Positions 292 to 64,000 of a DNA stretch of 64,000 nucleotides are shown one piece after another. The notes below the pieces were generated by a model that saw nothing but the letters and a program-made list of their open reading frames with translations, did no database searches and was not told the DNA's origin. Source of the DNA: a virus. How positions within the stretch are numbered: position 1 is the stretch's first letter; every line of letters begins with the position of its first letter. Location of the stretch: positions 74,543 through 138,542 of IMG/VR virus record IMGVR_UViG_3300030098_004404; one strand, written 5' to 3'. The translations under genes were made by a program, and so were the position numbers.

Positions 292-767
292 ATCTTCTTT
301 AAGTCACTGATAGCGATATTGTAACAGTCCGCTTTAACTCTAAAGTTATTATCGCCGTCAATCTGCCCCTTCTTCAGAAACTTAGCATCTTCAAAATATT
401 TGTGCTTATAGTATTGTCCAAGCACCCAAGCCCTTTTCCAGCGACCGTTGATATTTTCTAGTCTGACAAATACATATATATCACAGTCCTGCTTTTTTTG
501 TAAAGAGGCGATGGAACACTCGTAATAATCTTTTGGTTTGCTAGTGCATCTCTTGGTTTTGACATCGTACCTAATTCCATCTTTTACTATATCATAGCTG
601 TAAGTGTTGGTTATGTCACCTTTTATTATTTCATTAGCAACTTGTTCACCCAAAAAACCCGCAATGTTCCCCTCGCCCTTTGTTATTGAGTTGTTTATCT
701 CTCCCATTTCACGAGCCTTTCTCCAAGCTCGCTGTTTCATGTCTTGTGTTATTTCTACTTCAATCAT
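288..767 (-). CDS. Putative PD-(D/E)XK-fold nuclease
   Basis: A 159-residue protein. A conserved GFLGEQVANE segment (residues about 37-46) is followed by YDIVKDGIRYDVKTKR, giving the E...D-x-V-K-T-K arrangement of PD-(D/E)XK nucleases, with acidic D and catalytic-type K on adjacent strands. This resembles small phage resolvase- or restriction-like nucleases. It overlaps the sulfotransferase gene upstream and the methyltransferase downstream by a few bases. The nuclease call rests on this motif only. Confidence 0.5.
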   Translation of the reverse strand: MIEVEITQDMKQRAWRKAREMGEINNSITKGEGNIAGFLGEQVANEIIKGDITNTYSYDIVKDGIRYDVKTKRCTSKPKDYYECSIASLQKKQDCDIYVFVRLENINGRWKRAWVLGQYYKHKYFEDAKFLKKGQIDGDNNFRVKADCYNIAISDLKKI

Positions 768-3524: not shown

Positions 3525-4557
3525 TATTTGTTCCTTTCAACTGGGGATATAATTGTTCTTTTATTTGTTCGATTGTCATGTCGCCAACATCCTTTTCGGA
3601 TATGCTGGGACGGTAATAATTAAATCTTCTTCCGCACTTTTTAAGTATCTGCGAATAGGCCTTGTCTCCGGCCTCATCTGAATCCGTGAGTATCACTAAA
3701 TTTAATGCACCACTAGATTCAAGCAATATCAGTTGGTCTTCATTTATACTAGATCCAAAAATTCCAACTGCATTTTTAAGACCGGCCTCATGTAGCCTCC
3801 AAACATCTCCCTGCCCCTCAACAAGAATGGCAGTGCGTGTTTTCAATATTTCTTCTTTTGCTATGTTTAAACCATATAGGACTGACTTTCTAAAGCCCTT
3901 GCTGTGCAGCCACTTTGGCTTCATGTCGTCATTGGTGGATCTACCCACGCATCCTATATAATTATAGCCCTCATCGTAGATTGGGACAACAACTCTTCCC
4001 GACATTGGCTGATTTTTTGCCGAGCATAATCCAACATCGAAGGAATCTAGGGTTTCTGGGCTGTAGCCTCTACCTATATAGTATTGTGCTGGTATTTGAA
4101 TTTTCGATCTTATTTCTTCTCTACTTATTACGGGATCGTTTCTCTGTATCTTTCTATTGAATACATCAATAACCTTGAATGTATTTTTTTGAGTGCTTTC
4201 TAAATCTAGATCGTCTATATCTTTCTTTAAGAAATTAGCACAGAAAGATGCTGTTTCATTCATGGAGACAGACTTGTTTCTTTTCTGAGAAAGACACCCC
4301 CTAACAAACCCAAAAAGATTATTTGCATACTCTTCTTCGCAGTGCTGTGTCCAACATGCCCAGTTTCCCTTTTGCGTCATGCCGTCTGTGAAGATACAGC
4401 ACCCTTCTGGGTTGTCACCGCCATGAACAGGACAAGCAAACGCTACTCTGTTGGGATACTCTACATATTCTATGTCGAAATAGGTCAATAAAGCATCAAG
4501 CCTCAGAAACATTTCGTTAGAAAGTGCTGATATCTGATTGTTCGTTAATGTCCTCAT
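3514..4557 (-). CDS. DNA primase, CHC2 zinc finger plus Toprim
   Basis: 347 residues from the ATG at 4557, preceded by GAAGAGGG. An open upstream extension to 4644 would overlap the helicase by 128 bases and is less likely. The zinc-binding part holds CPVHGG, CCIF and CWTQHC, a DnaG-type CHC2 finger. The Toprim core shows ILVEGQGDVWRLHEAG and VILTDSDEAGDKA (E and DxD metal ligands). It makes RNA primers for lagging-strand synthesis. It directly follows the helicase gene, forming a replisome pair. Confidence 0.9.
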   Translation of the reverse strand: MRTLTNNQISALSNEMFLRLDALLTYFDIEYVEYPNRVAFACPVHGGDNPEGCCIFTDGMTQKGNWACWTQHCEEEYANNLFGFVRGCLSQKRNKSVSMNETASFCANFLKKDIDDLDLESTQKNTFKVIDVFNRKIQRNDPVISREEIRSKIQIPAQYYIGRGYSPETLDSFDVGLCSAKNQPMSGRVVVPIYDEGYNYIGCVGRSTNDDMKPKWLHSKGFRKSVLYGLNIAKEEILKTRTAILVEGQGDVWRLHEAGLKNAVGIFGSSINEDQLILLESSGALNLVILTDSDEAGDKAYSQILKKCGRRFNYYRPSISEKDVGDMTIEQIKEQLYPQLKGTNNAR

Positions 4558-5992
4558 CCGTCTCGAATCCCTCTTCTCTGGTTCTTGAGTTCTCATGTAT
4601 CTCGTTTCTAGTATCACCCTCTTCAATTCTACCAAATCTCCCATGCATCTTCATAGACACATAGTCTCCGTCGTCTAGACCTTCTCCATGTCTAGCAACG
4701 ACTGGAACAAGTTTTCTGTTGCCATTGTCTATTCCGTCTGTGGCCACCTCCTCGTCAGATTTCAGCTTAAATATAGAGAAGCTAGTACATAACCAGATTA
4801 GCCTGTCAGAACCAGAAACAACATCTGTAGATTCTTTTGTTATACCGTCCCTATTTAACTGCACAAAGGCTAAGCATGGCACATCATACTTCACCACAAA
4901 GTTGTGTAGCTTCGTGATCTGAAAACCTAAAACCTGATACTCCTGCATCGAGGCACTAATTCCCTCTGAGCCCATCAGCTTAAGATAGTCATAGACCACT
5001 AGGCAGTCCTTTGTTTGTCCGTTTTCATCAAATCCAACATGCTGATAGATCCACTTTCTCATCTGGCTGAGTATGTTCTCAAAAGACTCGCCAGCAATGC
5101 TGATATAGTGATATGGAATATCTTTTAACTTTTCGGCAGCGGCGAATACCTTTTCTTTTTCTATTTCGTTTTCAGAAAACCTACCTGTAGATATCTTATT
5201 AATTTCTACTCCTGACATATTTGCCAAGATTCGATTGTAGTGATCTTCTTTAGACATTTCTGTATCTAGCATCAATACGGGAATATCTAGTTCGCCCGCC
5301 ACATGCATTGCTACGGCATCGCCAAACATAGACTTACCAACCTTTGGTCTAGCGGCCACTAGGTCAACACACTTTCTCCGTAGTCCACCACCAATGGCCA
5401 CGTCAAACCTTGAGAACCCACTTGGTATACCCACAAAATCAGACACGTTTTCGCTAAGATATTCTACGTAGTCTTCTACGCCCTCTCCTAGTATCTCTGT
5501 CTTTTTTCTAGATGATTGGTATATGTCGCCCGTCGCTTCTAGTAGCGGCTCTTCTATTTTAGCCACGAGATCCATTACGTCTTCATCGCCCGTAATTGAA
5601 TCTAGGTCGCTTTCACACGCCTTTAGTGTCTTCTTAAGATCTCTGGCTAGTTTAAGCTTTGCTATTTTGGCGGCATGACTAGCAACATTCTCTTTATGTA
5701 TTGGAAAGTTAAAAAGAGATCGTATAAAACCAATCTCGTCTTTGTTGTTTATTTGATCATGCACACCAAGATCATTCGCAGAAGACAATATAGAGGAAAG
5801 CTCTACTTGCGTGTTCTCCGATATAGATCTATATATACAGTCAAATATCAACTGATTCATTGGATCAGTAAAAGACTGCGAGCTTATAAAATCAACTTCT
5901 AGATACGCATCTAGTCCATATTGACATAGTGCTGCCAAAACGGCTCTTTCTGCGGCTAGATCTTCTAGTTTTCTGGTTATCTTCTTAGGCAT
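4517..5992 (-). CDS. Replicative DNA helicase, DnaB family
   Basis: 491 residues from the ATG at 5992; a TTG three codons upstream is possible. The N-terminal DnaB domain (EDLAAERAVLAALCQYG) is followed by a RecA-type core with Walker A AARPKVGKSMF near residue 215, VLMLDTEMSKEDHYNRI (H1a-like) and a Walker B LVVYDYLKLMG. QLNRDG and SDRLIWL match DnaB motifs 3 and 4. It unwinds DNA at the fork and overlaps the primase gene by 41 bases. Confidence 0.92.
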   Translation of the reverse strand: MPKKITRKLEDLAAERAVLAALCQYGLDAYLEVDFISSQSFTDPMNQLIFDCIYRSISENTQVELSSILSSANDLGVHDQINNKDEIGFIRSLFNFPIHKENVASHAAKIAKLKLARDLKKTLKACESDLDSITGDEDVMDLVAKIEEPLLEATGDIYQSSRKKTEILGEGVEDYVEYLSENVSDFVGIPSGFSRFDVAIGGGLRRKCVDLVAARPKVGKSMFGDAVAMHVAGELDIPVLMLDTEMSKEDHYNRILANMSGVEINKISTGRFSENEIEKEKVFAAAEKLKDIPYHYISIAGESFENILSQMRKWIYQHVGFDENGQTKDCLVVYDYLKLMGSEGISASMQEYQVLGFQITKLHNFVVKYDVPCLAFVQLNRDGITKESTDVVSGSDRLIWLCTSFSIFKLKSDEEVATDGIDNGNRKLVPVVARHGEGLDDGDYVSMKMHGRFGRIEEGDTRNEIHENSRTREEGFETDEDINEQSDISTF

Positions 5993-26718: not shown

Positions 26719-27975
26719 TTATATAATAATGTCTGTTAAAACTTTGCCGCCGTCTACGATTTCGATAGGTCTTTCGCCCGGAGCCATTAGCTCTTTATCG
26801 GCAACTATTCCCAATCTATTGTAGATGGTAGCGGCCCAGTCCTCTATGTTGACTGGATTTTGGTCTGGCTCACTAGCAGTGGCGTTTGAGGTTCCATATG
26901 TCATTCCTCCCTTGATTCCACCACCAGCAAGCACCGTACTAAATACCTTTGGCCAGTGGTCTCTTCCTGCACGATTATTAATTTTCGGCGTTCTTCCAAA
27001 TTCAGAAACAACACAAACCAAGGTGGAATCCAGTAGGCCACGCTGGTCTAGGTCTTCGATAAGACTTGCAAACCCCTGATCGAAAGCTGGTAGCTGGCTA
27101 TTCATACCATTGGCTATGTTGTCGTGCATGTCCCATCCGCCATAGGTAAGAGTAACAAAACGTGTTCCAAACTCAACCAGTCTTCGGGCAAGAAGCATTC
27201 TGGCACCCGCAGTATTTCTGCCGTACTTGTCTCTTGTCTGTGCCGATTCTTTCTCTATATCAAAAGCGTCCTTTGCATTTTGATCTCCTATCAAGCTATA
27301 TGCACGCTCATAAAAAGAGTTCATCGCCTTTACAGAGTCGGCGTTCTGCTTTTTGTTAAAGTTGGTATTTACTACATTAAGTACACGCTGTCTTCTTGCA
27401 AACCTTTCATCTGGAACCGGAAGTTTCAGATCTCTAACTTGGAAGTCGTTACTGGCAGGATCAGACCCTAAACCAAACCCAGAATATGAGCTACTTAAAT
27501 ATCCAGTACCTGCAAATTCGTTAGGCTGGTTGGGGATACAGACATACGGAGGAAGGTTTTTGCGAGGCCCAAACTCATGTGCAACCACTGAACCCATTGA
27601 TGGGTATTGAAGGGCTGGGCTAGGTCTATAACCAGTAAACATATTGTGTGTGCCACGCTCATGAGCAGCTTCTCCGTGGGTTAGACTTTTTATAATCGTT
27701 AACTTGTCTGTAATCTTAGCGGTTTTCTTCAAAAGCTCGCCCACACGGATACCCGGAGCGACCGTGTCTATGCTGCCCAACGGGCCACGATACTCAAGAG
27801 GAGCGAATGGCTTAGGATCCCATGTTTCCTGATGAGCCATTCCTCCCGGTAAGTATATAAAAATTATGCTTTTTGCTGGGCCTTCCACGCTTTCGTAGTG
27901 CTTCTGATCGGCCATAGCCAGTGAAGCACCAAAGCTACCTAAAATACCAGCGTGTAAAAAAGATCTTCTATCCAT
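26719..27975 (-). CDS. DUF1501 family protein with Tat signal (copy 1)
   Basis: 418 residues from the ATG at 27975 (AAGGAAAT upstream). Twin-arginine signal MDRRSFLHAGILGSFGAS. DUF1501 landmarks: FIYLPGGMAHQETWDPKP near the N-terminus, RMLLARRLVEFGTRFVTL, GGWDMHDN, and VSEFGRTPKINNRAGRDHW. The family belongs to the alkaline phosphatase/sulfatase-like superfamily and abounds in Planctomycetes, where its activity is undetermined. Expected to be exported folded. First of three paralogues in this stretch. Confidence 0.88.
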   Translation of the reverse strand: MDRRSFLHAGILGSFGASLAMADQKHYESVEGPAKSIIFIYLPGGMAHQETWDPKPFAPLEYRGPLGSIDTVAPGIRVGELLKKTAKITDKLTIIKSLTHGEAAHERGTHNMFTGYRPSPALQYPSMGSVVAHEFGPRKNLPPYVCIPNQPNEFAGTGYLSSSYSGFGLGSDPASNDFQVRDLKLPVPDERFARRQRVLNVVNTNFNKKQNADSVKAMNSFYERAYSLIGDQNAKDAFDIEKESAQTRDKYGRNTAGARMLLARRLVEFGTRFVTLTYGGWDMHDNIANGMNSQLPAFDQGFASLIEDLDQRGLLDSTLVCVVSEFGRTPKINNRAGRDHWPKVFSTVLAGGGIKGGMTYGTSNATASEPDQNPVNIEDWAATIYNRLGIVADKELMAPGERPIEIVDGGKVLTDIII

Positions 27976-27985
27976 TACTATTTCC

Positions 27986-29188
27986 TTACCACATTCTACA
28001 AGACCAGTATCGTGCTTTCCATTTAGGCCCCGGGGCCGTGTCGCACTTATGTCTTGCCCTAAAACTTTTTCTTCTTTCGGGATTGTCTCTTTTGATCTCC
28101 ATATTAGGATCACCAAAACGAACTATAACAACTTTTCCAGAACCGTTTTTGGTATAGACAGCAAACTTCTTTGGGCCATCTGGAGTTCTGAATGGTTTAT
28201 TTAATGTGACCTTCCTGCCTTGATACTCTGCGGATTTACCTTTGTATAAAAGCGGAGTGCCGTCCTTTTTGTAGTTACCTTTTCTATTATAGCTAAATCT
28301 TTCACCCGTTTTTGGATTTTCATATACATAAGCCGCCTTGGATTTTTTAGGATGTCCCTTTGGCAGGAGGTCATTGTCCTGTGTATAGGCCGAGTTTGAG
28401 GGCTTGCCAGTTCTGAGCAAAGTAAGAAAAGCGTTTACTCTAGCCATAGCCCATCCATCTCTAGACATTTTTGGTGCGTGGCTTGTTGAGTAGGCTCCGG
28501 CACCCCTACGATACACAGCCTTAAGCATACCAAGAGTAGCCTTTGATCCTTTGCCTTTGGCGTTATGCTCTTTTACTTTTTTAGAAAGTCTTTCAGTAGT
28601 CTTCTTGCTGAACGTAATCTTGCCACTAGGGTTCTTGGCACTGTCTGGCTTGTTTTTCTTAGATCCCCTTTTCTGATCTTTTTTGGGGGCTGGTGTTCTA
28701 CGTGGGTCTCCCTTTGGCGGCTTGTCAGCGTTCGCCTCTTCAGCATAAGATGGAGGGCCAAGTTTCTTTTGTTTCTTCGGCCCCTGTGCTTTCTTTAATT
28801 CTTCTGGGCTTGGTCTACCCTCTTTTTCGGTTTTGGCTGGCCTGTAGTCGTCGCCTTCTCTCTGCTTCTTTTTACGAATGTTTTCCCATAGCCCCGGTTT
28901 AGCCACGGAAATATCCCACTCTTCAGTGCTTTCCTGAAAGTCTACATAATCAGCCTCTGCGGGTACGTAGAAGTTGTCTTCATTTATATCTTCTGTATAT
29001 CCAAATGTTTCTATGTTGTATTGCATATCGACAGAAGCCGATGTTGACAGCCCTTCAAGAGCCTTAGACATACAGACCGCTGTTCTTTGTTTTCCGTCTG
29101 GAAACTCTTTTGACACCTTGTTGTCTGACATACATCTAGACATAAAGTTTTCTCTAGACTCGTCTTCTCTTCTGGAAGGCAGTGGCAT
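27986..29188 (-). CDS. Putative head-associated protein with DUF5872-like and basic modules
   Basis: 400 residues, highly basic. Three parts: an N-terminal REDESRENFMSRCMSD...QRTAVCMSKA module common at the ends of phage head proteins; a Lys/Pro-rich disordered linker (residues about 100-190); and YSTSHAPKMSRDGWAMARVNAF, resembling DUF5872, followed by a C-terminal FGDPNMEIKRDNPERR...ARYWSCRMW module that recurs in large phages. Probably virion or maturation related. It sits between DUF1501 copies 1 and 2. Confidence 0.5.
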   Translation of the reverse strand: MPLPSRREDESRENFMSRCMSDNKVSKEFPDGKQRTAVCMSKALEGLSTSASVDMQYNIETFGYTEDINEDNFYVPAEADYVDFQESTEEWDISVAKPGLWENIRKKKQREGDDYRPAKTEKEGRPSPEELKKAQGPKKQKKLGPPSYAEEANADKPPKGDPRRTPAPKKDQKRGSKKNKPDSAKNPSGKITFSKKTTERLSKKVKEHNAKGKGSKATLGMLKAVYRRGAGAYSTSHAPKMSRDGWAMARVNAFLTLLRTGKPSNSAYTQDNDLLPKGHPKKSKAAYVYENPKTGERFSYNRKGNYKKDGTPLLYKGKSAEYQGRKVTLNKPFRTPDGPKKFAVYTKNGSGKVVIVRFGDPNMEIKRDNPERRKSFRARHKCDTAPGPKWKARYWSCRMW

Positions 29189-34724: not shown

Positions 34725-34943
34725 TTAAGCGTTTGAAGATGCTCTACGGTAGAGTGCCTTCTTAGCTAGGTTACGACTTTTATCTACTCCGTGATTCTTA
34801 AGTAGCGATCTTGCGATGCTAGAGTTTGACGTTCCGGCGAAAGAGGAAACAAATTCCTTTCCCGTCATATCGCCTTTTGCAAAGTTAGAAACAGTACTTA
34901 CATTACGCTTCGTATTAAGAAGCGAGTTCCAATTTGTAGTCAT
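34725..34943 (-). CDS. Small hypothetical protein
   Basis: 72 residues, Ser/Asn-rich with a basic C-terminus (RSLLKNHGVDKSRNLAKKALYRRA). Overlaps the previous stop. Function unknown. Confidence 0.5.
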   Translation of the reverse strand: MTTNWNSLLNTKRNVSTVSNFAKGDMTGKEFVSSFAGTSNSSIARSLLKNHGVDKSRNLAKKALYRRASSNA

Positions 34944-35359
34944 TAAGACTCTCCTTTTCTTTTCTTTAAAGAAACACTAATTAATTTATGTGGACTATTA
35001 TACATTCTGTCCAACATAGATGATTTTACTTCCTTACCCATGTATAGGAATTCGTATCCACTTGCATGTCTACCCTTACCTACAACAACTAAGCCGTTTT
35101 CCTTTACGTGTTTTATTTGGTAAACTCCGGGATTTGTGAAATATAGCCTCTCACCGCTTTCCTTTAGATAGTAAGTGCCAGATCTACCAACAACCCTGAC
35201 ATGATCTCCGGGGTTTAGTTCTTCTTTCCAATTCTCAACAAATCTTTTCTTCTTCTTATAAAAAACGTAGCCGCACTTTTTACATGTCGCTAGTCTTGCG
35301 TGACACTCTGTATTACAATCTGGGCACGCCTTTACCGGTTGTTTTCTTTTCTTCGCCAT
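34943..35359 (-). CDS. Zinc-ribbon protein with SH3/KOW-like beta domain
   Basis: 138 residues from the ATG at 35359, chosen because GCGAGGAAAC precedes it and the promoter at 35397-35425 would start transcripts near 35390. Zinc ribbon: CPDCNTEC and CKKCGY. The remainder is beta-rich (NPGDHVRVVGRSGTYYLK), reminiscent of small KOW/SH3 barrels that bind RNA or ribosomes. Function unknown. Confidence 0.6.
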   Translation of the reverse strand: MAKKRKQPVKACPDCNTECHARLATCKKCGYVFYKKKKRFVENWKEELNPGDHVRVVGRSGTYYLKESGERLYFTNPGVYQIKHVKENGLVVVGKGRHASGYEFLYMGKEVKSSMLDRMYNSPHKLISVSLKKRKGES

Positions 35360-35948: not shown

Positions 35949-35959
35949 AATCCTAGCAG

Positions 35960-36300
35960 TGGAGGCGGCGGGAATCGAACCCGCGTCCTGCATTGATTCC
36001 ATAAAAACATCTACATTGTTAGCCTGCTGTAATCGCACAACAAACAAAGCTATCCGATTATCGGAGTCAGATGGATTACCATCATCTCACGATTAATTCA
36101 AGTAGTGAGTCCTCTATCTAGGAACGGCCTAGCCCGTTCATGATTGGGCATGAAGGCTCATGAAGCCCCCTGCTGCTACGCAGCGAGTGCGAAATTCTCT
36201 TCGACACTTAAAAAAATATAATCGGTTTTTATACTGGCCAACCGATCAACCAGTCAATGCAGTCTTTACTTCCACAATCAGTCGAAGCCTAATCGCCCCC
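35960..36300 (-). ncRNA. ssrA: Transfer-messenger RNA (tmRNA)
   Basis: About 341 nt. The 5' end GGGGGCGAUUAGGCUUCGACUG and 3' end GGACGCGGGUUCGAUUCCCGCC-GCCUCCA fold into the Ala-type acceptor/T arm (7-bp acceptor stem with one G.U). The tag frame at 36208-36176 reads SVEENFALAA then stop, the standard tmRNA ending. The encoded 3' end is ACUG, so CCA must be added by the host. It rescues stalled ribosomes and marks their products for proteolysis. Driven by the promoter at 36361-36389. Confidence 0.95.
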
Positions 36301-36302
36301 CC

Positions 36303-36857
36303 TTATCTTACTTGTATTTCCATGTCCAGTAATCTTTCTATTTCCTTTGGTATTTTCTTTATTATAGTATGTCTATCGGGCTTTGTCAACTCCTTTCTTG
36401 AAGAAATTTCCACAATTCTTGCGTTTAGTACTTCTGGATCGTACATTGTTTGTGTTCTCTTTATCTGTTTAGAGATCACAACCCTTTCACATTTATCTGA
36501 CTGGTCATAGTAATGAGTATACCATTTGTCTTTATAAAGATACGGAGAGATGCCGCTTGTTTTATTGAGTCCATAATTATTATTATGAAGAGTAAAATAG
36601 TCTATAACTACATAGTCAGAGCCTTGATACCAATTTCCGGTAAGCTCACCTTCTTTTATCTCTGGTAGTAATACATTCTTGCGATACTCCCAGAATATAA
36701 CTTGGGTGAATTGCTTTTTAATCTCTCCGCTGTCACTATCTCTAAAATACTTATGATTAATCTCTATCATATCTACGTAGTCAACGACAAAAGTTTTTTC
36801 TTTTGTCCCAGCGTCCAAGAAGACAATCAGTGTCAATATTTTGACTACGTTGAGCAT
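36303..36857 (-). CDS. Exported hypothetical protein
   Basis: 184 residues. A short hydrophobic N-terminus (MLNVVKILTLIVFLDAG) suggests export or anchoring. The rest is beta-rich (DYVDMIEINHKYFRD, VIFWEYRKNVLLPEI, DYVVIDYFTLHNNN) with a charged helical end. The tmRNA promoter lies inside its 3' part. Function unknown. Confidence 0.55.
   Translation of the reverse strand: MLNVVKILTLIVFLDAGTKEKTFVVDYVDMIEINHKYFRDSDSGEIKKQFTQVIFWEYRKNVLLPEIKEGELTGNWYQGSDYVVIDYFTLHNNNYGLNKTSGISPYLYKDKWYTHYYDQSDKCERVVISKQIKRTQTMYDPEVLNARIVEISSRKELTKPDRHTIIKKIPKEIERLLDMEIQVR
36361..36389 (-). promoter_or_regulatory. tmRNA promoter with CGATA spacer element
   Basis: TTGACA (36389-36384), 17-base spacer AAGCCCGATAGACATAC, TATAAT (36366-36361) on the minus strand, within the upstream coding sequence; start expected near 36354, leaving about 50 bases to be trimmed from the tmRNA 5' end. 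Confidence 0.8.
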
Positions 36858-62638: not shown

Positions 62639-62891
62639 TGGCTGACTCCCATCAATGGCCGCAATCAGATAGTTTTAGACTAGACAAATGTAAAAATGGC
62701 TGACTGGTGCTATATAGCTGCGACTCTAGTTAGATGAGATACGACAGTTTCAAAAAGTTGCTGGATCCGCTGACTGGCTGGTAGGGTGGCGACTCTGTTT
62801 GGTAGGGGTTCGACAGAGGTGTGAAAGTGGCTGACTGGTGGTATCTGTGGCGACTCAGTATAGATGAGATGAGACAATGTAGAGAAGATCC
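62639..62891. repeat. Four degenerate tandem units, about 60 bases each
   Basis: Units begin near 62640, 62698, 62768 and 62829. Shared core: GGCTGACTGGTG...TAT...GCGACTC...AGATGAGAT..GACA, then A-rich spacer. Units 2 and 4 agree best (GATGAGAT and GACAATG/GACAGTT). No ORF is preserved across them. They lie downstream of a minus-strand promoter, so would form a repeat-containing RNA antisense to the end of the plus operon. Confidence 0.65.
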
Positions 62892-62964
62892 TTCCAATGG
62901 GTGGCATGGGTGAAGTAGTCCTAACCCCCCAACAAGACTAGTTGACACGTTTGGTCATAGTACC

Positions 62965-62992
62965 ATTATACCATAGTATCGACATAAGTCAA
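62965..62992 (-). promoter_or_regulatory. Minus-strand promoter facing the repeat region, CGATA spacer element
   Basis: TTGACT (62992-62987), 16-base spacer TATGTCGATACTATGG, TATAAT (62970-62965). No coding sequence follows until the converging plus-strand genes. Confidence 0.78.
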
Positions 62993-63143
62993 TAGGAACT
63001 TTAACGTAAACCCTTACTATATAAGTACTTACAGCAAAAAGATAAACAATACGAAATACGCTTGCATTGTAGAGTTTGGCACAAGTGTTGCTGCCCCGGT
63101 TTTCGTAAGTCCTTTGATACCAAGCACTTACGTCAAAACTTTC
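62993..63143. other. Noncoding stretch
   Basis: About 150 bases between the repeat-facing promoter and the 63144 ORF. AT-rich with no ORF or clear hairpin seen; part of the 62,629-63,305 region that otherwise holds the repeats, a promoter, a 27-codon ORF and a terminator. Confidence 0.5.
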
Positions 63144-63240: not shown

Positions 63241-63286
63241 AAAAAAACCGCTACCGGTCAGGACAACGAGTCCCAACCGGCAACGG
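63241..63286 (-). terminator. Strong rho-independent terminator of the DUF932 gene
   Basis: CCGTTGCCGGT pairs with ACCGGTAGCGG (11 bp, two G.U) around an inner GGAC/GTCC hairpin, followed by TTTTTTT. Positions 63286-63241 on the minus strand. Confidence 0.88.
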
Positions 63287-63305
63287 CACACGAAAGGGGT
63301 ACAGA

Positions 63306-64000
63306 TTAGGCCGCAAGCTCTAGGGCGAGCTTCTCAGCCGCCCGCACTTCTTGCGAGTTGGACGCACGCAGGATTCGATCAAAGTCACCTTTGAAACCTT
63401 CCTTCGCTTGTGCATCGTGCTGGACGTAGCCCTGAACAGCGTTGTACGCTTCCCAAGCGGAAACCACGTTGGTCATAGCTGGACGACCTGTCAGGTTACG
63501 CTCACGATTGAGACGCTTCCAGATTGCCTCAGTACGATTTTGGTGAGTAGTCACCGCACGTACCTTTTCACCACGAGCCGCACGATCCAACTGATCCTGA
63601 TCAGGACGACCATAGATAGAGTCGAGAAACTCAGTCATGCGAACCTCAGTGGATTCTAGACGGTCGATAACGTCAGTCAGAGTTGACCAGCTATTTTTGA
63701 GAGTCTCAAACGTAGCGATCAATTCGTCCATGTTGGCACGCAAGCCGGAAGTGTGACGAATGGAAACGGTTGTACCGTTGACCATACGCATCATAGCCAG
63801 ATTGCTACACGCATCACGGAAGTAACCAAGCGAGGCAGTAAACGCCTTGCCATCATAGCCAGCGTTAATCATCACGCGAGGCCAAACGTTGTCGGTGTCC
63901 CGATCCTTGAAGATCGACCGACGTTGCTCGGCAGTCGGAGCAATGGAAACGTAATGACCAGAACGGAAGTGAGTATCGCAAGCAATCTCACCGTCAAACG
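63306..64000 (-). CDS. DUF932 (phage/plasmid-like) protein, 5' end outside window
   Basis: At least 231 residues; the frame is open to the window edge, so the start is missing. CDTHFRSGHYVSIAP, YFRDACSNLAMMRMV and SIRHTSGLRANMDELI carry the ACSN...RHT landmarks of DUF932 proteins, found on phages and plasmids; some are implicated in genome-linked or early functions, but activity is unknown. GC content is visibly higher than the mid-window genes. Strong terminator downstream. Confidence 0.78.
   Translation of the reverse strand, partial: FDGEIACDTHFRSGHYVSIAPTAEQRRSIFKDRDTDNVWPRVMINAGYDGKAFTASLGYFRDACSNLAMMRMVNGTTVSIRHTSGLRANMDELIATFETLKNSWSTLTDVIDRLESTEVRMTEFLDSIYGRPDQDQLDRAARGEKVRAVTTHQNRTEAIWKRLNRERNLTGRPAMTNVVSAWEAYNAVQGYVQHDAQAKEGFKGDFDRILRASNSQEVRAAEKLALELAA

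Follow-up and report, generated by a model that had tools for sequence, protein, structure and literature searches.

What a promoter-borne repeat array without a recognizable gene is doing in a phage early region is the question raised by a short stretch near the end of the window, the 64,000 nucleotides analysed here, which are the closing part of a virus record 138,542 bp long. The phage is of the T4-like type; the best tblastn match of its ribonucleotide reductase is Pelagibacter phage Mosig (56%), and the window also encodes RIIA, a tmRNA and tRNAs. Judged from sequence, the repeat unit is a copy of a previously undescribed element of ~45 bases found in a family of uncultured T4-like phages, where it occupies the gaps that separate early genes, tRNAs and noncoding RNAs, close to early promoters; probably it marks, or ends, gene cassettes that can be exchanged.

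Location and promoter of the array

The array lies between a DUF932 gene and a convergent operon (Table 1). The DUF932 transcript is ended by a predicted intrinsic terminator, so the array needs a promoter of its own. An earlier note on this DNA had placed a CGATA-class promoter on the minus strand, and that promoter is real: TTGACTTATGTCGATACTATGGTATAAT (62992-62965) is an 11/12 match with an extended -10, and its position is kept in the related loci L002-L004, L012, L090 and L094. The class, TTGACN..CGATA..TATAAT, has 16 copies in the 138.5-kb record, all on the minus strand, and only two of the 16 are linked to the element. The quasi-palindrome at the predicted start site recurs beside the array promoter, as the same or an inverted copy, in L004, L007, L012 and L090. 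The plus-strand operon, genes similar to which are found in L004, L006 and L011, ends 12 bp from the last array unit, so that the two are convergent and do not overlap. The suggestion that the array is antisense is not supported, since it lies past the operon end and an antisense part would require read-through.

Table 1. Features of the repeat array and its surroundings, in window coordinates
Feature	Position	Strand	Basis and remarks
Convergent operon of three genes, with products of 122, 227 (trypsin-like) and 106 aa	61204..62628	+	Similar convergent genes in L004, L006 and L011
Element copy 4; box2 degenerate, ATTGCGG	62640..62685	-	R1 match 2.5e-6
Element copy 3	62698..62745	-	R1 match 6.1e-8
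Element copy 2; box3 AGTCAGCG	62768..62814	-	R1 match 2.2e-6
Element copy 1; box1 GTCTCATCTC, box2 AGTCGCC, box3 AGTCAGCC	62829..62875	-	R1 match 5.5e-8
Non-repeat leader, ~80 nt from predicted start site (~62957) to first element; no conserved ORF	62880..62957	-	Sequence
Quasi-palindrome TGACC-AAACG-TGTCA at predicted start site	62943..62957	.	Sequence
CGATA-class early sigma70 promoter of array, TTGACT-16-TATAAT, extended -10	62965..62992	-	Sequence; relatives
Operator-like palindrome of 27 bp, GTAARYCCTT-N7-AAGNRYTTAC, upstream of array promoter	63006..63032	.	Sequence
Second 27-bp palindromic site, same family	63105..63131	.	Sequence
Predicted intrinsic terminator closing upstream DUF932 transcript	63247..63287	-	Terminator prediction
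DUF932 gene, cut off by the end of the record (C-terminal 230 aa present)	63306..63998	-	Array sits downstream of DUF932 in relatives

The operator-like palindromes belong to a family, GTAAGTCCTT-N7-AAGGACTTAC, that is restricted to the early region and also occurs at G000 763, 2703, 3776 and 5037 and in L005, L009 and L012. In relatives the sites are paired, 52-53 bp apart, upstream of CGATA promoters, and in the three loci just named a GC-rich inverted repeat often lies between the members of a pair. Elsewhere in the window, the tmRNA gene (35957-36300, minus strand) has a CGATA promoter of its own at 36389, and a DUF1501 protein (379 bits) is encoded at 26719-28116, also on the minus strand. 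DUF1501 is known mostly from cellular bacteria such as planctomycetes, and here it is carried by a T4-like phage.

Anatomy and coding potential

Four degenerate units of about 60 bases, as the earlier note had described, occupy 62640-62875 of the minus strand, with starts at 62875, 62814, 62745 and 62685 and hence spacings of 61, 69 and 60. Read on the plus strand, [GC]GCTGACT is present in all four (62640, 62698, 62768 and 62829); the GCGACTC box that was also reported for them is found in three (62720, 62789 and 62850) and is degenerate in the fourth. The pattern GTC-N30..40-AGTCAGC[CG] has five matches in the array region and none elsewhere in the window, against expected means of 0.002 in shuffles of the region and 0.2 in shuffles of the whole window. 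TRF reported no tandem repeat in the array because the units are too degenerate. A CRISPR-like array was considered and rejected, as on inspection the units are alike within a genome and lack spacer-like variability.

Two minus-strand ORFs, of 65 and 72 aa, span the array. Compared with one relative, the 65-aa ORF has three synonymous and six nonsynonymous changes, while the adjacent DUF932 gene has 49 and 14, so the ORF does not look coding and a coding reading of the array was dropped on this pattern. With no conserved ORF behind the promoter and array-crossing ORFs that are not coding-like, the earlier observation of a promoter with no coding sequence stands.

The tandem repeats, the strong promoter and the palindromes at 63006 and 63105 could together suggest a replication origin or iteron region, which the earlier note had offered as one possibility. 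The data do not bear this out, and we regard it as very improbable: GC skew, itself uninformative, shows no change other than with gene orientation, the array is not AT-rich, its units are not helically phased, a C-rich array transcript would disfavour R-loops, and copies of the element also lie after tRNAs, in leaders and, as single 3' or leader copies, at a second locus (below).

The element in related phages

Relatives were gathered by a DUF932 protein search of IMG/VR, which gave about 30 loci on metagenomic contigs, several of them fragmentary. On the transcript strand the element consensus is GTCTYAYCT, ~20 nt, [GA]TCGCC, ~18 nt, AGYCAGC[GC], and the distance from box1 to box3 is 36-41 nt and nearly constant inside one genome. 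R1, a sequence-only model of the element, finds about 80 copies in the window genome and its uncultured relatives: the first 22 sources gave 58 at E<=0.05, and another 16 loci added 24. Since R1 was built from copies picked by eye, the conservation of the boxes is partly by construction; the 16 later loci were independent of its building. L002 and L003 match the window at 92% across the whole region, and the module persists downstream of DUF932 in more distant relatives, whose protein identity falls to about 50%. The R1 search thus finds the repeat conserved in related phages, whose lack of it the earlier note had named as grounds for giving up its reading. Each large record has its copies at two places only: the DUF932 locus, and a site ~5 kb upstream of it at which a conserved noncoding RNA has the copy as its 3' end (in G000 at 450-700, beyond the window).

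R1 has no match in the most distant DUF932 loci (L010, L013, L014, L101, L107-L111 and L114), none of the Rfam 15 covariance models matches the element, and no isolate relative was found by DNA, DUF932 protein or zinc-ribbon protein. A bacterial-host origin was rejected; the exact pattern has three matches in 84,980 genomes, and of these L079 was inspected and the DNA around it looks unrelated.

Could the units be a duplicated remnant with no present function? Their degeneracy and variable copy number are of that kind, and so is the lack of any better conservation of boxes than of spacers in the 92%-identical relative. Against this, the array differs from that relative by 4.6% (11/237) and the adjacent gene by about 9%, the three-box spacing is kept to about 50% protein identity, and the copies stay linked to promoters. 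We think a remnant quite improbable.

Placement of copies and the cargo between them

Promoter and ORF calls around 79 copies were pattern-based, so the counts are approximate: the next feature after a copy is another copy in 21 cases, a CGATA promoter in 20 and an ORF start in 18. The distance from copy to CGATA promoter is 20-85 nt, mostly 19-49 nt to the -35 box. Copies also lie 2-3 nt after a tRNA (L009 5061; L076 complement 7695) and overlap ORF stops (L075 and L076). By eye, arrays that face the convergent operon have three or four copies and co-directional sites mostly one to three.

What lies between the copies varies. The window, L004 and L090 have no cargo between copies before the convergent operon, and L011, the locus that matches the window array, has a promoter and ORF cassette there. 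tRNAs are the cargo in L005 and L009, and the zinc-ribbon gene in L007, L009, L074-L076 and L089. L007 encodes a DUF932 protein that is 96% identical, yet the DNA directly downstream is wholly different. At the second locus in L005 and L006, the upstream noncoding RNA has been swapped with retention of the element and the next promoter. In L115 the copies are antisense to an inserted tRNA, the tRNA cassette being inverted relative to the flanking copies.

Such variable cargo flanked by copies is what would be expected of a repeat that acts purely as DNA, either as a recombination or cassette-boundary site or as the site of a DNA-binding protein, with transcription incidental. This is a serious rival to the reading we favour below, although we consider it unlikely. 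It accords with the inverted cassette of L115, with start and stop codons that may fall inside copies (L074, L091 and L076), with the recurrence of GTC triplets about every 20 bp in the array, and with the lack of a consensus RNA structure. It fits poorly with the co-orientation of copies with early transcription, to which L115 is the sole exception, and with unit spacings (58-61, 66 and 69) that are not helically phased. Arrays of integron attC sites resemble the element in that similar direct repeats flank small cargo and start or stop codons may overlap the repeat, but box1 and box3 are not complementary, so that the inverted complementarity of attC is missing, the element lacks attC core sites and an imperfect palindrome, and no integrase or other dedicated recombinase was seen at the loci.

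Some copies precede genes. Single copies lie 11-26 nt before the start codons of the zinc-ribbon gene or other small ORFs, copies stand directly between promoter and start codon in L007, L018, L020, L074 and L089, and the start codon is inside the element in L074 and L091. In such leaders of accessory genes the copies could be the regulated targets of an RNA-binding protein, of host or phage, for which the array RNA is a decoy with one to four titrating sites. The logic would be that of the CsrB/RsmZ sponge RNAs, in which tandem binding-site-like modules of a noncoding RNA are matched by single copies in mRNA leaders; here the element is phage-borne and its motif is different, with no recurrent GGA or GGA hairpins in the units. 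The occurrence of promoter, leader and tandem copies without an ORF at the same place in many relatives speaks for such a decoy, as does the low structure of the element's 3' half (below). The GGA-type CsrA motif is absent, the window genome has no leader copy, the zinc-ribbon protein is missing from G009 and G013, two large records with copies, and copies after tRNAs and noncoding RNAs are left unexplained. The decoy too is a serious rival that we hold to be improbable on balance.

The zinc-ribbon family (window 34943-35359, minus strand) has four conserved Cys and a beta-rich domain and is present in the element locus of seven relatives. It has no match in 50,697 phage records, and its AlphaFold model (pLDDT 84) gave no Foldseek match at E<=0.001. 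Although often beside a leader copy, this protein was rejected as the cognate binder on account of G009 and G013.

The conserved noncoding RNA of the second locus is ~200 nt long and is preceded by a CGATA promoter of its own; box1 takes part in its terminal stem. It was located at L029 (G000) 450-715 (minus strand), L007 930-1170, L011 1500-1740 and L016 1700-1920; an exact 30-mer of it occurs in eight IMG/VR contigs, and it has no Rfam match.

Structure and composition of the predicted transcript

No consensus secondary structure was found in 32 copies. A small box1-box2 hairpin occurs in 28 of 55 copies (21.2+-3.1 in shuffles, z about 3); being only mildly enriched and missing from about half of the copies, it was not accepted as the structure of the element. 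The 3' half has fewer stems than shuffles. Box2-box3 pairings drawn by hand looked convincing for some genomes but did not hold for others, and base pairing of box1 to the conserved noncoding RNA (GGTAAGAC) in trans is not kept across copies. Terminator prediction called nothing within the array. The predicted minus-strand RNA of the window array is rich in C (0.30, with G at 0.16) and has YC dimers at twice background. This composition is shared by L006, L009 and L074 and not by L016, L020, L036 and L037, and a Rho rut site, which fails in these four loci, was dropped as a general definition of the element.

A proposed PeSL-like boundary module

PeSLs (promoter early stem-loops) are composite promoter-terminator motifs of T4-type phages (Arbiol 2010 and Comeau 2014, as cited in PMC4503421 and PMC4177764). 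The element resembles them in coupling an early promoter to an intergenic, 3'-end-like sequence, and in its association with variable early regions and gene shuffling. The element is placed at unit ends and shortly ahead of the following early promoter, as the stem-loop is in PeSL cassettes (PMC4503421 and the Comeau 2014 title cited there); the 20 copies that precede a CGATA promoter are joined by others that follow one, and comparison among relatives places variable cargo between copies as at a module boundary. It is for this position that we favour, tentatively and at somewhat less than even confidence, a PeSL-like mobile regulatory module in which an early promoter and a short transcribed boundary element, replacing the stem-loop, delimit exchangeable early cassettes. 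The difference is that the element has no conserved stem-loop or T-run, is ~45 nt long and three-boxed, and can be repeated in tandem or stand in the leader, after the promoter and ahead of the start codon. Lambdoid nut and put sites are likewise short elements downstream of early promoters, some of them at the start site, but the element has no boxA or boxB hairpin, is linked to few of the early promoters and is also found at 3' ends.

In the PeSL-like scheme, a clade-specific, sense-strand intergenic element would travel with CGATA early promoters and be placed at the borders of exchangeable early-region cassettes of small genes, tRNAs and noncoding RNAs. In place of the stem-loop there would be a three-box sequence, essentially unstructured, which a putative factor of host or phage would read in RNA so as to end or cut early transcripts. 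The four-copy array would then be a noncoding unit that halts transcription from 62957 ahead of the convergent operon; its repetition might strengthen that stop and also aid homologous exchange of cassettes. What the sequences establish is the three-box anatomy with its constant spacing, the association of copies with promoters and with the ends of units, their conservation and the changing cargo; termination or processing is inferred. The leader copies, the inverted tRNA of L115 and a bias of C over G that is not universal call for caution; in particular, a position between promoter and start codon, or around the start codon, is strange for a terminator unless it acts by attenuation. It is possible but doubtful that the three-box element represents an unstructured RNA signal of a new class, read by a factor, which ends or cuts early transcripts in this uncultured T4-like clade and is tandem where a stronger stop is needed.

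If the PeSL-like reading is true, T4-like phages would have a second kind of mobile regulatory cassette, one without a stem-loop, and their separation and exchange of early genes, tRNAs and noncoding RNAs could be studied by way of a concrete sequence. Because the element is so short, recurs and is specific to the clade, a simple pull-down could identify its reader.

We note two other repeats in these loci. A box1-like sequence alone, GTGTCGCACCTAAACCT, forms four tandem copies at L004 5255-5365, and L095, a relative that lacks the element, has two copies (4510-4680) of another repeat, CCCGCAAGGGCCA..TTTGGAC..CAAGTTCTTT, directly before the zinc-ribbon gene.
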